In this document: positions 18,968 to 29,092 of the stretch, in pieces
Numbering within the stretch: position 1 is the first letter of the stretch
Layout of the letters: each line of letters starts with the position of its first letter
Assembly: GCA_019637315.1 (NCBI GenBank)
Contig: JAHBVU010000006.1
Location: 1-64,000 of the forward strand
Source: Gemmatimonadales bacterium
GTDB taxonomy: Bacteria; Gemmatimonadota; Gemmatimonadetes; Gemmatimonadales; GWC2-71-9
DNA length: 64,000 nt
Direction: 5' to 3'
Translations under genes and position numbers: made by a program
Notes under the pieces: generated by a model
Databases searched by the model: none
What the model saw: only the letters and a program-made list of their open reading frames with translations
What the model was told of the DNA's origin: nothing

Positions 18968-20155
18968 TCAGACCGTCCGATCGAGCAACTCGATCAGACG
19001 GGTGACCTCGTCGGCCGTGTTGTAGCAGTGGGGGCTCACTCGAATCAAACCTTCACGAAGCGATACGACCACACCCCGAGCCTTGAGCTCCGCATGAACT
19101 CTGGCGGCATCGGGGAGCGCCAGCGACACGATGCCCGTACCCTGAGCCCCGGTGGGCGATGCGAGCCGGACGCCGCGCCCTTGTGCCCAGGCCACCAGGG
19201 GCTGCGTCAGGCGCCGCAGATGACGGGCGATCGCATCGATGCCCAGCTCGCTCAGCAGCTCGAGCGAGGCGTTCATTCCAGCGAAATCCTGGAACGGCAG
19301 GGTAATGACTTCGAACCGGCGGGCATCATGTCGCCAGCCTGAGGGATAGCCCGTCAGAGTGCCAAAATCGTCGGTCCCTTGAAACGCCGTCCATCCTACC
19401 GTGGTCGGCTCCAGCCGCTCGATCAGATCCGACCGGATGTAGGTAAAGCCTGAGCCCCAGGGCGAGAGAAGCCACTTCTGCGCACCGCAGGCCAGAATAT
19501 CGACCGGGGTCCGGGCAACGTCGAACGGTTCCTGCCCCAGGCCTTGAATGGCGTCGAGCACAAACCAGGTGCCCGTCGCGCGCGCGGCCGCGCCCAGCCG
19601 GCCGATGTCGGCAAGGTAGCCAGTATGGAACTGCACCAGGGAAAGGGCCAGGATCTTGACCCGAGGGTCTTCGAGCCGAGCCAGCAGCCGGGACTCATCC
19701 GGCCAGCCGTCCGGCCCCAGGGGAACGAGTTCGAGCACGGCACCGCGGCGCGACTGCTCCCGCCAGGGAAAGACATTGGCGGGGAACTCACCGTGGCTCA
19801 CCAGAATAATGTCGCCGGGCTCGAGCGGGATGGCCTGCGCGGCCAGGTTGATCCCGGCACTGGTGTTGGTGGCAAGCGCAATCTCGGAGGGGGCGGCACC
19901 GATCAGTTCTGCCACCAGCGTCCGCGACCGCCCGAAGACGCCGAACATGTGCTCGTCCGCCAGGCGGTACGCCTCGGCCCGAACGCGGTTGTAATCGTCG
20001 AGGCGCCGGCGGGTTCGCTCGGGCAGGGGTCCGATCGAGGCGTGGTCGAGGTAGACCACGCGGTCGGCCCAGGGAAACTCCTCCCGGCGGAGCGCGTCGA
20101 CGTCGAAATCGCCGCTGGCGGTGCCGGCCACCGCCAGCGCAGTGTCAGAGCTCAC
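18968..20155 (-). CDS. Class V aminotransferase (cysteine desulfurase/selenocysteine lyase-like)
   Basis: A 395-aa PLP enzyme of fold type I. Asp201 in LDAIQG pairs with the pyridine nitrogen and Lys227 in CGAQKWLLSPWGSGF is the Schiff-base lysine. VYLDHASIGPLP near the N-terminus is the family's opening. No reactive Cys loop of true NifS/IscS desulfurases is evident, so a different amino-acid substrate is likely. The GTG at 20155 was chosen as start because the candidate -10 (20196-20191) lies downstream of the only upstream ATG (20215), and that ATG is inside the divergent patatin gene. It is probably co-transcribed with the DUF853 gene. Confidence 0.82.
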   Translation of the reverse strand: MSSDTALAVAGTASGDFDVDALRREEFPWADRVVYLDHASIGPLPERTRRRLDDYNRVRAEAYRLADEHMFGVFGRSRTLVAELIGAAPSEIALATNTSAGINLAAQAIPLEPGDIILVSHGEFPANVFPWREQSRRGAVLELVPLGPDGWPDESRLLARLEDPRVKILALSLVQFHTGYLADIGRLGAAARATGTWFVLDAIQGLGQEPFDVARTPVDILACGAQKWLLSPWGSGFTYIRSDLIERLEPTTVGWTAFQGTDDFGTLTGYPSGWRHDARRFEVITLPFQDFAGMNASLELLSELGIDAIARHLRRLTQPLVAWAQGRGVRLASPTGAQGTGIVSLALPDAARVHAELKARGVVVSLREGLIRVSPHCYNTADEVTRLIELLDRTV

Positions 20156-20189
20156 AATGCCGTCCAGGTAGGAAGGAACGAACGATGCC

Positions 20190-20197
20190 GATAATAT
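20190..20197. promoter_or_regulatory. Bidirectional -10 region between aminotransferase and patatin genes
   Basis: The plus strand reads GATAAT (20190-20195, 5/6 match) ending 8 nt before the patatin ATG. The minus strand of the same bases reads TATTAT (5/6). One AT-rich patch in a GC-rich gap thus can serve both genes. A possible minus-strand -35, TTGAGA, lies 19 nt away. Confidence 0.45.
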
Positions 20198-20203
20198 CCT
20201 AGT

Positions 20204-21268
20204 ATGACGAGCCATTCTCAATTCAGTCTGGTTCTGAGCGGCGGCGGGCTCAAGGGGCTGGCCCATGTCGGCGTCCTGCGCGCGCTGGAAGAACGCGGGC
20301 TAGAACCCTCGGTGGTGGTCGGTTGCAGCATCGGCGCTCTGATCGCCGGCGCATGGGCCACCGGCATGTCGGTCCGCGAAATGGAAGACCGGGCGCTGGC
20401 TCTGAAACGCGCGGACATCTTCCGGGTCGCGCACTTCGACATGGCGTTCAAGCGGATGCGATCGCCGGCGGTGTACCGGGCTGAGCCACTCGACGCGCTG
20501 ATAACCTCGCTCGTGGGTGACCGGACCTTTACCGACCTGCCTCGGCGCCTGGTCGTCAATACCGTCGACCTCAATACCGGCAATCAGCTCCTCTGGGGGC
20601 TCCCGGGCCTCACCGATGCGAAGGTGGCGGACGCCGTCTTTGCCTCCTGCGCCCTTCCGGGCATCCTGCCCCCGCGAGCCATCAACGGGCATGTCTGCGT
20701 CGACGGCGCGGTAGTCGAGAACCTGCCGGTGCGAGCCTCCCTGGGGCTCTGCTCAGGGCCGATCATAGCCGTCGACGTCGGCGGAAGCGGGGGGCAGCGC
20801 CGAGCGGTCGAGCGCCAGGGCTTTGCGTCGACCTACGCCCGGGGGCTCGAGCTGGTCATGAACACCCTCGCTGCGGAGCTGCTGCGTGCCTGGCGTAATC
20901 CGCCGGTCGTGATCGTACGCCCCCGGATCGAGCGCATTCCGATGTTCGCGTTCAATCGGACGCCCTACCTGATCGCGGAGGGGTTCCACGCCCTCCACAG
21001 CACGCTGGAGAGCCTGCCCAAGGCCATGGAAGACCTTCCCCCGGGTATTCACCCGCAGCGCGAGGTGGTGCTGTCCATCGACGACGACGCCTGCGTTGCC
21101 TGCGGGGTCTGTTACTCCCGCCAGCCTCATGTCTTCCGCCGGAAACCGAACGGTCGCGCCGAAGTGAAGGTGCCCCGACACTGGTGGTCCCCGCTCGACG
21201 ACCGGATCCTCCGCGGCTGTCCGACGGGCGCCATCACGGCCGACCAGCGCTGGCCCCTGCCCGACTAA
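20204..21268 (+). CDS. Patatin-like phospholipase with C-terminal [4Fe-4S] ferredoxin domain
   Basis: A 354-aa protein. Residues 1-260 are a patatin/RssA-type hydrolase: oxyanion loop GGGLKG (13-18), nucleophile elbow GCSIG with Ser42, and catalytic Asp168 in VDGAVVENLPV. Residues of about 285-354 form a separate one-cluster ferredoxin: Cys297, Cys300 and Cys303 (CVACGVC) plus Cys339 in GCPTGAI, with the spacing of Fer4_13/Fer4_15-type ferredoxins (CxxCxxC...CP). No frameshift is needed to join them. There is no signal peptide, so it is cytosolic or peripheral. An acyl hydrolase carrying an electron-transfer centre is unusual; whether it senses redox state or serves a partner enzyme is unknown. 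Its last 35 bp overlap the convergent glycosyltransferase gene. Confidence 0.92.
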   Translation: MTSHSQFSLVLSGGGLKGLAHVGVLRALEERGLEPSVVVGCSIGALIAGAWATGMSVREMEDRALALKRADIFRVAHFDMAFKRMRSPAVYRAEPLDALITSLVGDRTFTDLPRRLVVNTVDLNTGNQLLWGLPGLTDAKVADAVFASCALPGILPPRAINGHVCVDGAVVENLPVRASLGLCSGPIIAVDVGGSGGQRRAVERQGFASTYARGLELVMNTLAAELLRAWRNPPVVIVRPRIERIPMFAFNRTPYLIAEGFHALHSTLESLPKAMEDLPPGIHPQREVVLSIDDDACVACGVCYSRQPHVFRRKPNGRAEVKVPRHWWSPLDDRILRGCPTGAITADQRWPLPD

Positions 21269-22406
21269 GTTCCCGCAACAACATCACGGTCCGCTCCCAG
21301 TTCCGCTCTGATACCGCCCAGGAGCGGCCGGCCGCTCCAAAGCGGGCCGCGAGGACCGGATCATCGAGCAGGCGGCCGATCGCCGCGACGGCCGCCGGGA
21401 GATCCTGAGGTGGCACTCGGAAGCCGGTCTCCTCGTGGCGCACCGCCTCGGCCGTGCCGCCGCTGGCGCCGGCGACGACCGGGATGGCCGCTGCCGCCGC
21501 ATCCATCAGCGCAATGCCGAACCCTTCGATATCGAGTCCTTCGGCACGGGAAAGCCCGGCGTAGACTGTCGCCGCTCGGTAGGCAGCAGGCAGTTCGTCA
21601 TCGGCAACCTGATCCAGCCAGACGATTCGATCCGCCACTCCTCTCGCGAGCGCCAGCTGGTGGAGTCGAGGGGCATCGCTACCGCGACCGACCACGAGAT
21701 AGCGTACATCCGCGAATGCCGGTCCGAGCAGCGCCAGCGCCTCGATAGTGGAATCGATACCCTTGTGCGGCACCAGGCGCGCAACGGTCAGGAGATACCG
21801 ACCGGTCGGAAGCCCGTACCGCGCCAGAAACGGCCCCGGATCTGCTTCGGGGCGGAAGCGGTCCACATCGGTGCCGAGCGGAACCGCGCGAATGCGATCC
21901 TCGACGGGAAGGCGAAGTTCATCGAACACCGCAGCGGCAAGGTCCGCCGTCCAGGCGCTGTTGGCAGCGAGGACCGTGGCCCCGCCGAGCAGGGCTCGGG
22001 CGCTCAGCGCCTTGAGCCGCGATCGCCGATACTTGGCCTGCAGTTGAAGCAGGTCGCCACCGTGCAGCATGATCCCGTACGGGATCCGCTCTCGCCGCCG
22101 CGCTTCCCGCGCAACGTAGCCGGCGGGGCGGACGGTATCGCACCAGACGAAGCCCACCTGATGTCGACGCGCCAGGTCCCGCGCGCGCCGTTGCCAGGCC
22201 CAGAGCCCGGGCAACGTCTTGAGCCGGGCCGAGGCGACCGGAACGCGATCGACGACTGCCGAAGTCCAAGTGTCGTTCGCACCAGGCATGTGACCGGTCG
22301 AGACGACGAGCTCACCTGGCGGGTAGCGGCGGGCCAGTTCCGTCATCCATCGCGCAATCCCACCACCGATCGGGGGAAAGTCATGCGCCAGGAGGAGGTC
22401 GGTCAC
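21234..22406 (-). CDS. Glycosyltransferase family 4
   Basis: A 390-aa GT-B enzyme, last in a six-gene glycan operon. The N-terminal domain has HDFPPIGGGIARW, the acceptor-side signature of GT4 enzymes. The C-terminal nucleotide-sugar domain has VARLVPHKGID, VVGRGSDAPRL and the EX7E-like segment in RAEGLDIEGFGIALMDA. The start is GTG, overlapping the upstream gene's stop by 4 bp. The 3' end overlaps the patatin gene on the other strand. Donor and acceptor sugars are not predictable. Confidence 0.9.
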   Translation of the reverse strand: MTDLLLAHDFPPIGGGIARWMTELARRYPPGELVVSTGHMPGANDTWTSAVVDRVPVASARLKTLPGLWAWQRRARDLARRHQVGFVWCDTVRPAGYVAREARRRERIPYGIMLHGGDLLQLQAKYRRSRLKALSARALLGGATVLAANSAWTADLAAAVFDELRLPVEDRIRAVPLGTDVDRFRPEADPGPFLARYGLPTGRYLLTVARLVPHKGIDSTIEALALLGPAFADVRYLVVGRGSDAPRLHQLALARGVADRIVWLDQVADDELPAAYRAATVYAGLSRAEGLDIEGFGIALMDAAAAAIPVVAGASGGTAEAVRHEETGFRVPPQDLPAAVAAIGRLLDDPVLAARFGAAGRSWAVSERNWERTVMLLRELSRAGASAGRP

Positions 22407-25201: not shown

Positions 25202-26209
25202 TCAGTCGTCGACCGGAGCTGACGCCTGTCCACCCTGGCGAGGCACCCGGACCCCAAGGGCATCGAGAAGGCGAGGGGCCCGGTGCATATGGGTATGCCT
25301 GGCAAGCAACTTCCGTCGTGCGGCCGCGCCGAGTTCGTCACCGAGCGGCGGCGCCTGGAGCAGCTCCTTGACCCGCTCTTTGAGCTCCTTGGGCGTGCTG
25401 AACGTCACGACTTCCCGGTCTGGTTCCAGATAGTGGGGCAGGTCGGCGCGAGCATCGACGACCTGAGGCAGGCCCATTGCCGCAATCTCGAAGACTCGCT
25501 GGTTGCAGGTGGCCGCATCACGACTCCCGATGTCGTGGTGCAGGTTCACGGCCACCGACGCGCCACCGTACGCGCGGACATACTCAGCCGTCGTCCGTGC
25601 TTCACCGCGGCAGTAGTCGCGCAGTGCGGTGCGACGCCAGCCTGGTCCCCAGAGCGCCAAACCGCACTCGACCAGCTCGGCGAGGTACCGCTCCCGAGCT
25701 GGCGTTGCCGCCCCGGCAAAGACGACGTTGGCCCGATACTGATCCTTGGTGCGCATCGGCCGATAGACCGAAGGATCGGCTGCGTGCGGCAACACCTCAG
25801 GGGCGGAACCAACGACGCGCTCATACGCCGCCGCAACGTCGGATCCGACGACGAAGACATGGTCATAGGCGCGGCCGCTGGCGAGGACCTCGTCGATCCG
25901 CCCCAGATCATCCGGAAACCAGTTGACGATGGGCCGGCCCGACTCACGTCGGATCGTGTCGACCATCGCCTCGGAGAGATCGTAGCCTCCGACGACGACC
26001 ACGGCGTCGGCCTCCGCAGCGTCGATCGCCTTCAGGATCCGGCTTCGCAGGTCGCTGCCGCCCAGAAAGCCGAGGAAGCCGCTCCGGCGCCGAAGGTCGA
26101 AGGTGCTGACATCGCAGCCGATCCGCTCCAACGCCCGCGCTCGCTGGTTCGAGTGGGCAAATTCGCCGTCGTCGAACGGTGCAATCAGCAGGACCGAAGG
26201 TGCGGTCAC
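25202..26209 (-). CDS. CgeB-like glycosyltransferase, copy 1
   Basis: A 335-aa GT-B protein of the CgeB/DUF3880 group. It has APFDDGEFAHSNQRARALE at the front, IVNWFPDDLGRID, VVFAGAATPARERYL and SVAVNLHHDIG, then RVFEIAAMGLPQVVDARADL near the C-terminus. It ends only 2 bp before the next CgeB-like gene and overlaps the ABC exporter's stop by 4 bp. The pair looks like a tandem duplication that has since diverged. Confidence 0.82.
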   Translation of the reverse strand: MTAPSVLLIAPFDDGEFAHSNQRARALERIGCDVSTFDLRRRSGFLGFLGGSDLRSRILKAIDAAEADAVVVVGGYDLSEAMVDTIRRESGRPIVNWFPDDLGRIDEVLASGRAYDHVFVVGSDVAAAYERVVGSAPEVLPHAADPSVYRPMRTKDQYRANVVFAGAATPARERYLAELVECGLALWGPGWRRTALRDYCRGEARTTAEYVRAYGGASVAVNLHHDIGSRDAATCNQRVFEIAAMGLPQVVDARADLPHYLEPDREVVTFSTPKELKERVKELLQAPPLGDELGAAARRKLLARHTHMHRAPRLLDALGVRVPRQGGQASAPVDD

Positions 26210-28023
26210 GCAAGCTCCTCCACGGATCGGAATTGCAGGTCGTGCAACCGGCGATAGAGCCCGCCGTTGGCGAGGAGAGCGAGGTGGGTGCCCCGCTCGA
26301 TGATCCGGCCCCCATCCAGGACGAGGATCTCATCCGCATGTTGCACGGTCGCAAGCCGGTGCGCAACCACCAGCACCGTCCGGTCCTGCATCAGGCGGTC
26401 GATCGCTTCCTGGACCAGCCGCTCGGACTCGGTATCGAGGGCGCTGGTGGCTTCGTCGAGAATCAGAATCGGCGGGTCGCGCAGCAGGGCCCGCGCAATC
26501 GCAATCCGCTGACGTTGTCCGCCCGAGAGCCGGGTACCCCGCTCACCAAGCAGGGTGTCGAACCCCTGCGGCAAGGACTGAATGAACTCCAGTGCATTGG
26601 CTGCGCGCGCGGCCTGCTCGACCTGCTCTCGGGTGGCACCGGGTCGACCATAGGCAATGTTGGCGTGCACCGTATCGTTGAGGACGACCGTTTCCTGACT
26701 CACCAGGCCGATCAGACCGCGCAACGAAGCCCGGCTCAGCTCCGTGAGCGGCACCCCGTCGAGCCGGATGGCGCCTGCGGTCGGATCGTGGAACCGGGCA
26801 ACCAGTTCGAGCAAGGTCGTCTTACCCGCCCCCGAGGGACCGACCACCGCCACCACATGGCCCTTGGGAACGACGAACGAGACCTCGTCGAGCACGGTAT
26901 CCCGATCGTAACGGAAGCCGACTCGATCGAAAACGAGCTCGCGTTCGAAGCCCGCCTCGCGCGCCCCGGACGCATCGGTTTCCGTAGCGGGGCGGTCGAG
27001 CCAGGCAAAGACGCGCTCCGCACTGGCCAGCGCAATTGCCATGACCGTGGGGAACTGCGAGAGCGCTTTGATCGGCGCCATCATCTTGAGTGCAATGACG
27101 AGAAAGCCGATCGTGACCTCGGGACTCAACTCGGCGCCGATGACGGCCGGGTTGGCCGCAGCCCAGATGATCAGGATGATGACGAACCCGCCGAAGATTT
27201 CGCTGACCGGATGGCTGAGCGACGAGAACCGTTGGGTGCGGATGTAGCGCTTCCGATACCGATCGGCCTGCTCCGCGAAGGTGTCGACTTCATACCCCTC
27301 GGCGCCGTACCCGCGAATCAGCTTGATGGCACCCAGCCGCTCGGTCACCGTCGAGGTCAGGAGACCCCGCTCCTCGGCAAACTCACCCGCGTGGCGCCTG
27401 AGCCGGCGCAGCAACTGTTGGATCCCGATGACCAGGATCGGCGCCGCCGCGAGCGTCAGAGCCGTCAGCCGCCATGAGATTCCGGCCAGGATCCAGAGCG
27501 AAACCAGAATCAGCACCAGATTCTGAAAGAACGACGCCAGCGCGGCCGTGACCGCCTGCTTGCTCTGGTCGGCATCCGAGATCACGCCCGAAATGAGCTG
27601 TCCCTGGCGGGTCCGCTGAAAGAAGCCGAGATCGATGGACAGGAGGTGGCGGTAGAGCTTGACCCGAAGGTCGCGAACCAGGCCTTCCTGAACCGCGACC
27701 GAGAGCTGTGACGCTGCGTACGTGAAGAAATTCTTGAGCACGAGGCCGGCCAGCAGCAAGATGACCAGGCGGGTGCCTGCCGTGGCCCGGTCGGCCCCGC
27801 CGATCAGGGGTTCGAGCAATCGGCTGGTAATGGCTTCGAGTTCGGTGCTGCCGGGCGCCAGGGCTCCCGCCGTGCCAAACAGCGTCTTGAGCAGCGGTAT
27901 CAGAATGACGATCGTGGCGCCGTCGAGCACCGATGCCACCAGGGTGGCGCCAAGGCCAAGACCGAACAAACCCCAGTACGGCCGAGCGACCTGAAAGAGG
28001 CGTTTCGCGACATTCCGCTGCAT
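26206..28023 (-). CDS. ABC exporter, MsbA/lipid-flippase type (permease fused to ATPase)
   Basis: A 605-aa half-transporter with six predicted membrane segments in the first 320 residues and one ATPase domain: Walker A GPSGAGKT (395-402), Q-loop VSQET, signature LSGGQ (499-503), Walker B ILILDEATS (523-527 for DEATS) and switch His in VVAHRLATV. As first gene of a glycosyltransferase operon it probably flips a lipid-linked glycan or lipid A precursor. The ATG at 28023 was preferred over upstream starts because it gives the normal family N-terminus and follows a -10-like TAGCTT by 7 nt. Confidence 0.92.
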   Translation of the reverse strand: MQRNVAKRLFQVARPYWGLFGLGLGATLVASVLDGATIVILIPLLKTLFGTAGALAPGSTELEAITSRLLEPLIGGADRATAGTRLVILLLAGLVLKNFFTYAASQLSVAVQEGLVRDLRVKLYRHLLSIDLGFFQRTRQGQLISGVISDADQSKQAVTAALASFFQNLVLILVSLWILAGISWRLTALTLAAAPILVIGIQQLLRRLRRHAGEFAEERGLLTSTVTERLGAIKLIRGYGAEGYEVDTFAEQADRYRKRYIRTQRFSSLSHPVSEIFGGFVIILIIWAAANPAVIGAELSPEVTIGFLVIALKMMAPIKALSQFPTVMAIALASAERVFAWLDRPATETDASGAREAGFERELVFDRVGFRYDRDTVLDEVSFVVPKGHVVAVVGPSGAGKTTLLELVARFHDPTAGAIRLDGVPLTELSRASLRGLIGLVSQETVVLNDTVHANIAYGRPGATREQVEQAARAANALEFIQSLPQGFDTLLGERGTRLSGGQRQRIAIARALLRDPPILILDEATSALDTESERLVQEAIDRLMQDRTVLVVAHRLATVQHADEILVLDGGRIIERGTHLALLANGGLYRRLHDLQFRSVEELA

Positions 28024-28030
28024 GAGGTAG

Positions 28031-28036
28031 AAGCTA
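28031..28036 (-). promoter_or_regulatory. -10 box TAGCTT of the glycan operon
   Basis: TAGCTT on the minus strand ends 7 nt before the exporter ATG and no ribosome site intervenes. The surrounding bases ATTAGCTTCT are the same as before the PBP gene start near 14890. Confidence 0.4.
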
Positions 28037-28084
28037 ATTGGACCGTTATCTTTCGGTCCCTTTTCCCGGCGCATCGACGCACTC

Positions 28085-29092
28085 GTGGCTCCTCGCATTC
28101 TCGTGGTTCGGATGAGCTCTCTGGGCGACATCCTGCTCACCACTCCCCTGCTCCGCGCCCTCCGGACCCGCCATCCGGACGCCTGGATCAGCTATGTGAC
28201 CAAGACGGTCTTCACGCCGCTCCTGGCCGACAACCCGCGGATCGACGAGCTGATACCCTACGATCCGGGTCAGCCCCTGAGCGTCCTGGTCGATCGCCTC
28301 AAGGCGGGCGTGTACACGCATCGGCTGGATCTCCACGGCAGTTTGCGGAGTCGGGCTCTCCGGCTTCGCGTGCCGGGCACCTGGCGGGGTTATCCCAAGC
28401 ATCGCCTGGCCCGGACCCTTCTGATCCGGACCAAGCGGAACGTCTACCGGGACCCGCGACCCGTGGTGGAGCGGTACTTCGATGCCGCTCGCGACCTGGA
28501 CGTTCAGCCGGACGGCAAGCCGCTCGAGTTCTTCATTCGTCGGGAAATGCTCGACCAGGCCGCTGACTTCCTGAGTCACCACAGCCTGGGCCAGGATCGG
28601 AGTCTGGTTGCCGTCTGCCCGGGCGCACAGCACGCAACCAAGCGCTGGCCCGTACGCCACTGGCAGGACCTGGTGACACGGCTGACGGCTCGCGGCTACG
28701 ATGTCGTCGTCCTCGGCGGCCCGGCCGAGCGCGAGATCGGCGAGGAGATCGCAGCTGCTGGCGCCGAACGCGCAGCCAGCGCTGCGGGGAGGTTCGAGAT
28801 CGGCGTTTCGGCCGCCCTGCTCAAGCGATCGGCGCGCGCCGTCAGCGGCGATTCAGGCCTGCTCCACCTCGCCACCGCAGTCGGCACTCCGTTGGTCGGC
28901 CTGTATGGCCCGACGGTCCGTCCCTTTGGGTTCTACCCCTACCAGGCCAGGGCCACCGCGCTCGAGTTGCCGCTCGACTGCCGGCCCTGCAGCAAGATGG
29001 GCGGACCGGTCTGCCCCCTGGGCCATCACCGGTGCCTGGTCGACATTGCGCCAGACCAGGTATTCGAAGCTGTTCGCAAGGTGCCCCGGTGA
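28085..29092 (+). CDS. Glycosyltransferase family 9 (lipopolysaccharide heptosyltransferase-like)
   Basis: A 335-aa GT-B enzyme resembling WaaC/WaaF, which add heptose to LPS inner core. It starts with GTG (VAPRILVVRMSSLGDILLTTPLLRAL, the family's classic opening) and has ADNPRIDELI, VCPGAQHATKRWP, and the donor-site DSGLLHLATAVGTPLVGLYGPT. A closing cysteine-rich stretch (CRPCSKMGGPVCPLGHHRC) is common in the family. It is divergent from the ABC exporter operon and overlaps the next gene by 4 bp. Confidence 0.92.
   Translation: MAPRILVVRMSSLGDILLTTPLLRALRTRHPDAWISYVTKTVFTPLLADNPRIDELIPYDPGQPLSVLVDRLKAGVYTHRLDLHGSLRSRALRLRVPGTWRGYPKHRLARTLLIRTKRNVYRDPRPVVERYFDAARDLDVQPDGKPLEFFIRREMLDQAADFLSHHSLGQDRSLVAVCPGAQHATKRWPVRHWQDLVTRLTARGYDVVVLGGPAEREIGEEIAAAGAERAASAAGRFEIGVSAALLKRSARAVSGDSGLLHLATAVGTPLVGLYGPTVRPFGFYPYQARATALELPLDCRPCSKMGGPVCPLGHHRCLVDIAPDQVFEAVRKVPR

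Follow-up and report, generated by a model that had tools for sequence, protein, structure and literature searches.

The window analyzed here, a 64,000-nucleotide stretch from the genome of a Gemmatimonadales bacterium, carries a gene (20204..21268, + strand; 354 amino acids plus stop) in which a patatin domain is joined to a C-terminal single-cluster ferredoxin domain. The frame is open over all 354 codons, as the initial annotation of this locus had stated. The patatin catalytic domain spans residues 9-178 (20228..20737, +; Pfam PF01734, E-value 3.3e-35, 122.5 bits against a cut-off of 27.7), and the predicted structure, which follows the fold of PlpD, extends the patatin part past the Pfam match to approximately residue 272 (21019, +). 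The patatin motif set is complete in the window protein: GGGxxG is represented by the oxyanion-hole motif GGGLKG at residues 13-18 (20240..20257, +; sequence and alignment), GxSxG by the nucleophile elbow GCSIG at residues 40-44 (20321..20335, +) with Ser42 at 20327-20329, and DG[AG] by the DG motif at residues 167-168 (20702..20707, +) with the catalytic Asp167 at 20702-20704. Both GGGLKG and GCSIG stand where the initial annotation had placed them and are conserved in aligned orthologues; the catalytic aspartate, which it had numbered 168, is one residue earlier, residue 168 being glycine. A linker (residues 273-285; 21020..21058, +) is the least conserved segment of the protein, with 35% mean pairwise identity over residues 273-284.

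The [4Fe-4S] ferredoxin domain follows at residues 286-350 (21059..21253, +), as delimited by Pfam, the AlphaFold model and a match to the ferredoxin 1VJW. Its CxxCxxC...CP pattern is complete. The predicted cluster ligands are Cys297 (21092), Cys300 (21101) and Cys303 (21110), all invariant and together spanning 21092..21112 (+), and a predicted fourth ligand, Cys339 (21218-21220), which precedes Pro340 (21218..21223, +). Fer4_13 (PF13370) matches residues 292-345 (E-value 3.3e-6, 28.1 bits against a cut-off of 24.5), and Fer4_15 (PF13459) falls marginally under its cut-off in the window protein (22.3 against 22.4 bits). By the criteria tested, which are profile matches, motifs and a predicted structure, the protein is a member of the patatin family whose C-terminus belongs to the single-cluster ferredoxin family. 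Upstream of the gene, GATAATAT lies 6 bp 5' of the ATG (window 20190-20204) and may serve as a -10 element, in which case translation would start without a leader; it is absent from the consensus-scan list.

The fusion gene is flanked by a divergent class V aminotransferase gene (18968..20215, - strand, start uncertain), SufS/EgtE-like but far under the curated cut-offs for SufS and EgtE, and by a convergent GT4-type glycosyltransferase gene (21234..22406, -) that opens an envelope-polysaccharide cluster in which an MsbA-like ABC transporter is also found (26206-28143). No obvious SufS-type active-site cysteine loop could be seen by eye in the aminotransferase. This arrangement, divergent from the aminotransferase and convergent with the GT4-type glycosyltransferase, is the usual one in the window's family, where the neighbors comprise the aminotransferase, glycosyltransferases and TyrS. 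In Gemmatimonadaceae the fusion gene usually lies upstream of the aconitase gene acnA on the same strand, the gap measuring 18-184 bp where the two are closest and exceeding 1 kb in some genomes, and a YegS-type lipid kinase is often the next gene after acnA; the divergent neighbor in that family is a kynureninase, an indigoidine-synthase-A-like gene or a histidine kinase.

A structure prediction, one of the checks proposed in the initial annotation, yielded a confident two-domain AlphaFold model of the full-length protein from an alignment of 62 sequences (mean pLDDT 91.8, pTM 0.90), with high values in both domains. In Foldseek searches of the PDB, the first part of the model matched the patatin domain of PlpD with a TM-score of 0.85 by target length (E-value 1e-20, 26% identity). 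The last 60-70 residues matched the Thermotoga ferredoxin 1VJW (TM-score 0.83 by target length, 37% identity) and 1SIZ (0.79 by target length), and ferredoxins of the P450 type (8amp, 8amq and 4id8) were also among the structural matches. None of the best 50 PDB matches is described as having both a patatin and a ferredoxin domain.

To assess how widely the two domains occur in this order, a further check that had been proposed, we sampled 298 genomes of the phylum Gemmatimonadota. Matches at E<=1e-40 were found in 131 genomes of the same order and in 41 genomes of other orders of the class, the split being counted from the match table. By a tally of the same table, about 126 of the 131 in-order matches span roughly residues 6-346 and are full-length fusions; the remainder run into a contig end or are split or truncated. 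Among the matches listed for other orders, the best end near residue 270-281 and thus hold the patatin part only. The initial annotation had allowed that all homologues might lack the C-terminal domain, which is not so: CxxCxxC...C is kept in 77 of 80 named loci, the exceptions being L133 and L135, which are without the domain, and L095, which is truncated where its contig stops. The relatives in the named collection are Gemmatimonadota, many of them labeled as Gemmatimonadales, Gemmatimonadaceae or Gemmatimonas, and the window genome itself is assembled in 36 contigs. Among 62 aligned sequences, the four cysteines, Ser42, Gly44, Asp167 and Gly168 are invariant, and all 62 match both Patatin and Fer4_13/Fer4_15 in Pfam. 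A comparison of 90 fused sequences, which bears out the four cysteines named in the initial annotation, finds these invariant, Pro340 at 99% and Trp328 nearly invariant. Mean pairwise identity is 52% in the ferredoxin core versus 57% in the patatin core. In one orthologue (L041:7783-8910) the fourth ligand cysteine is present and the proline after it is missing (QCHAEAI).

The alternative of a sequencing or assembly artefact, or of cysteines arranged by chance in a degenerate tail, can be weighed directly against these counts. That such errors or pseudogenes occur is shown by one genome (G003:C6:153151-154169) in which a frame change near residue 195 breaks the fusion gene in two, through either pseudogenization or misassembly; nothing else speaks for an artefact. 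The same architecture recurs in about 126 sampled genomes, single-contig ones included, at 38-75% identity. An artefact or frameshift is ruled out by the many independent assemblies with the same fusion, and we give this alternative as a whole a negligible probability. Orthologues, Pfam and the structure model thus agree with the earlier view that an artefact was unlikely, and the fusion is confirmed as real and far beyond chance, since its motif and ligand residues are invariant or nearly so in 35 and in 62 aligned orthologues. The fusion was found in no plasmid or phage record, IMG/VR held no relative of the protein, and titles and abstracts in the literature gave no account of a patatin-ferredoxin fusion. 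It is a new domain architecture within a known enzyme family, here carried by an order of soil and water bacteria.

The history of the domain was approached through two trees, built by maximum likelihood from just the patatin domain. In both, the fused proteins group as a single clade, with SH-aLRT support of 91, and of 99 with a ferredoxin-less form nested inside, which points to a single gain of the ferredoxin domain, probably no later than the ancestor of the sampled Gemmatimonadales, and to inheritance that was mostly vertical from then on. The domain has also been lost. In L133, L135 and G026 (G026 and L133 may be one and the same genome) the patatin ends after 275 residues and the ferredoxin domain is gone; in L133 and L135 the next gene is convergent and lies 31-34 bp beyond the shortened patatin, and in G026 no close free-standing copy of the ferredoxin domain turned up when one was searched for. 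In G028 the domain is replaced by an unrelated short tail at the end of the frame. The ferredoxin domain was thus lost in at least two lineages (L133/L135/G026 and G028) that kept the patatin, and a ferredoxin-less protein with an intact patatin frame inside the fused clade means that the domain can go while the patatin persists. A ferredoxin-docking surface on the patatin had been considered from the substitution L136R in the ferredoxin-less proteins; it was dropped because the fused L015 and L016, near the ferredoxin-less protein in the trees, share the arginine.

Our preferred reading, to which we give about an even chance, is that the protein works in the cytoplasm as a serine acyl hydrolase of the patatin type and that its [4Fe-4S] domain confers redox or iron-sulfur responsiveness. 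The predicted Ser42/Asp167 dyad would form the acyl hydrolase center, and the protein is probably cytoplasmic, no signal sequence being apparent by eye. A cluster assembled in the ferredoxin domain may then act as a switch: intact or reduced, it would keep the activity or stability of the hydrolase in one state; oxidized, damaged or unassembled, it would allow that state to change, so that lipid turnover would track redox, oxygen or iron-sulfur status. By analogy with PurF of Bacillus subtilis, the cluster would serve in stability control and not in electron transfer. Of the two functions raised in the initial annotation, redox gating of lipid hydrolysis and electron delivery to a lipid-modifying partner, gating is favored because inspection of the conserved neighbors turned up no reductase, P450 or desaturase gene, the domain is not acidic as the Thermotoga ferredoxin is, and it was lost at least twice with the patatin kept. 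The position of acnA, itself encoding a [4Fe-4S] enzyme, in line downstream in Gemmatimonadaceae and sometimes only 18 bp away, was also counted in favor. The neighbors in the window's family (aminotransferase, glycosyltransferases, TyrS) are uninformative on redox.

Two other roles for the cluster were weighed. In the first, the ferredoxin domain would be a tethered electron carrier serving a lipid-modifying partner such as a desaturase, hydroxylase or P450, for which the patatin frees the acyl substrate. Electron-transfer ferredoxins have the same four ligands and the same fold, and the matches to P450-type ferredoxins point the same way; against this, the conserved neighbors seen in the window's family and in Gemmatimonadaceae include no ferredoxin reductase, P450 or desaturase, and the domain lacks the acidic surface that the Thermotoga ferredoxin has. 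The ferredoxin domain has a net charge of about 0, and of +3 in the window protein, compared with -7 in the Thermotoga ferredoxin; with one reference protein, the charge argument has a slender basis. Taken together, we regard an electron-carrying role as improbable.

In the second, the cluster would be a stable structural one, or the domain would mediate docking to a partner or the membrane, in either case without sensing anything. Structural clusters are present in several proteins of non-redox function, namely archaeal RNA polymerase subunit D, primase and MutY, which provide a precedent, and the confident modeling of the whole two-domain protein, the neutral to basic charge of the domain and the nearly invariant Trp328 would suit such a role; indeed, a purely structural cluster accounts for the conserved ligands and the confident model just as well. 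The cost in iron of conserving a typical ferredoxin core weighs against it, as do the lineages, at least two, that keep an intact patatin without the domain, which is therefore not needed for folding there. This leaves a structural or docking role somewhat unlikely in our estimation. Domain loss with retention of the patatin fits the modulatory role of our preferred reading and falls short of proof, since the loss pattern does not cleanly separate a regulatory cluster from a structural or docking one.

A bolder form of iron-sulfur gating is that these proteins represent a new class of lipase gated directly by its cluster, in which the [4Fe-4S] center senses oxygen, redox or cluster assembly and switches acyl hydrolysis, and that patatins of the phylum are more widely tied to iron-sulfur metabolism; we put this forward tentatively, as a doubtful proposal. 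If true, this wider tie would take in a related single-domain patatin whose gene neighbors the SUF operon in orders other than the Gemmatimonadales. This arrangement was observed at 14 loci (L056-L069, e.g. L066:7244-13503) of other orders of the class, where the patatin is divergent from an operon encoding SufC, SufB, SufD, a Rieske protein, SufS and SufU and is immediately adjacent to it in most. Direct orthology of these patatins with the fusion, which would have linked the fused gene to iron-sulfur assembly, is unsupported, as they group in both trees with a paralogue linked to MlaD/MlaE, and for that reason they were not used as functional evidence. Within the window's family, at least eight genomes have a separate long, PlpD-like patatin (a frame of about 700 amino acids) at a distance of roughly 4-5 kb from the SUF genes (G006:C20, G018:C52 (L083), G026:C62, G007:C4, G033:C59, G036:C128, G008:C99 and G019:C133), which makes a second, non-orthologous association of patatin and SUF. 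A second patatin of the order (paralogue 2; L070 and L071) is clustered with MlaE/MlaD, an ABC ATPase and DUF2203, which suggests a connection with the transport of phospholipids.

Patatins are a widespread lipase family, and to our knowledge few regulators of their bacterial members outside virulence have been described. With a covalent patatin-ferredoxin link across an order, and natural losses as controls, control of lipid turnover by redox or iron-sulfur status becomes directly testable in culturable relatives, Gemmatimonas among them.

Among known systems, the patatin domain of PlpD from Pseudomonas aeruginosa (PDB 5FYA/5FQU) shares the fold and is the top PDB match of the fusion protein by sequence. 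PlpD is a surface or secreted protein with a C-terminal barrel, whereas the fusion protein carries a ferredoxin domain at this end. The best NCBIfam match is RssA (NF007623, 5.9e-29), which, unlike the fusion protein, is without a ferredoxin domain; identity with RssA was rejected at 101.2 bits against an equivalog cut-off of 272. The ferredoxin part shares its Cys-x2-Cys-x2-Cys ... Cys-Pro ligands and its fold with the Thermotoga maritima ferredoxin 1VJW and with ferredoxins of the Fer4_13 and Fer4_15 families. Single-cluster ferredoxins are free, small electron carriers, that of Thermotoga an acidic one, whereas the domain described here is tethered covalently to a hydrolase and has a neutral to basic charge.

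Patatin domains under control are found in CapV and CapE of CBASS, which are among the next-best structural matches of the fusion protein, and in ExoU and VipD, with cyclic nucleotides or host cofactors acting as the controlling agents. In these proteins control comes from outside, whereas here it would come from the attached iron-sulfur domain. Assignment as a CBASS CapV effector was rejected (NF041079, 70.4 bits against a cut-off of 200); the PADLOC matches, which covered the patatin part, were limited to generic phospholipase effectors. By inspection, no neighbor (aminotransferase, glycosyltransferases and other conserved neighbors) looks like a cyclic-nucleotide synthase. The nearest parallel in working is PurF of Bacillus subtilis, a glutamine PRPP amidotransferase of non-redox chemistry in which an oxygen-labile [4Fe-4S] cluster controls stability. 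The two enzymes are unrelated, and the likeness lies in the role proposed for the cluster, which in PurF is labile. The patatin-ferredoxin fusion would then be a further example of an iron-sulfur domain placed on an enzyme whose own chemistry is non-redox.
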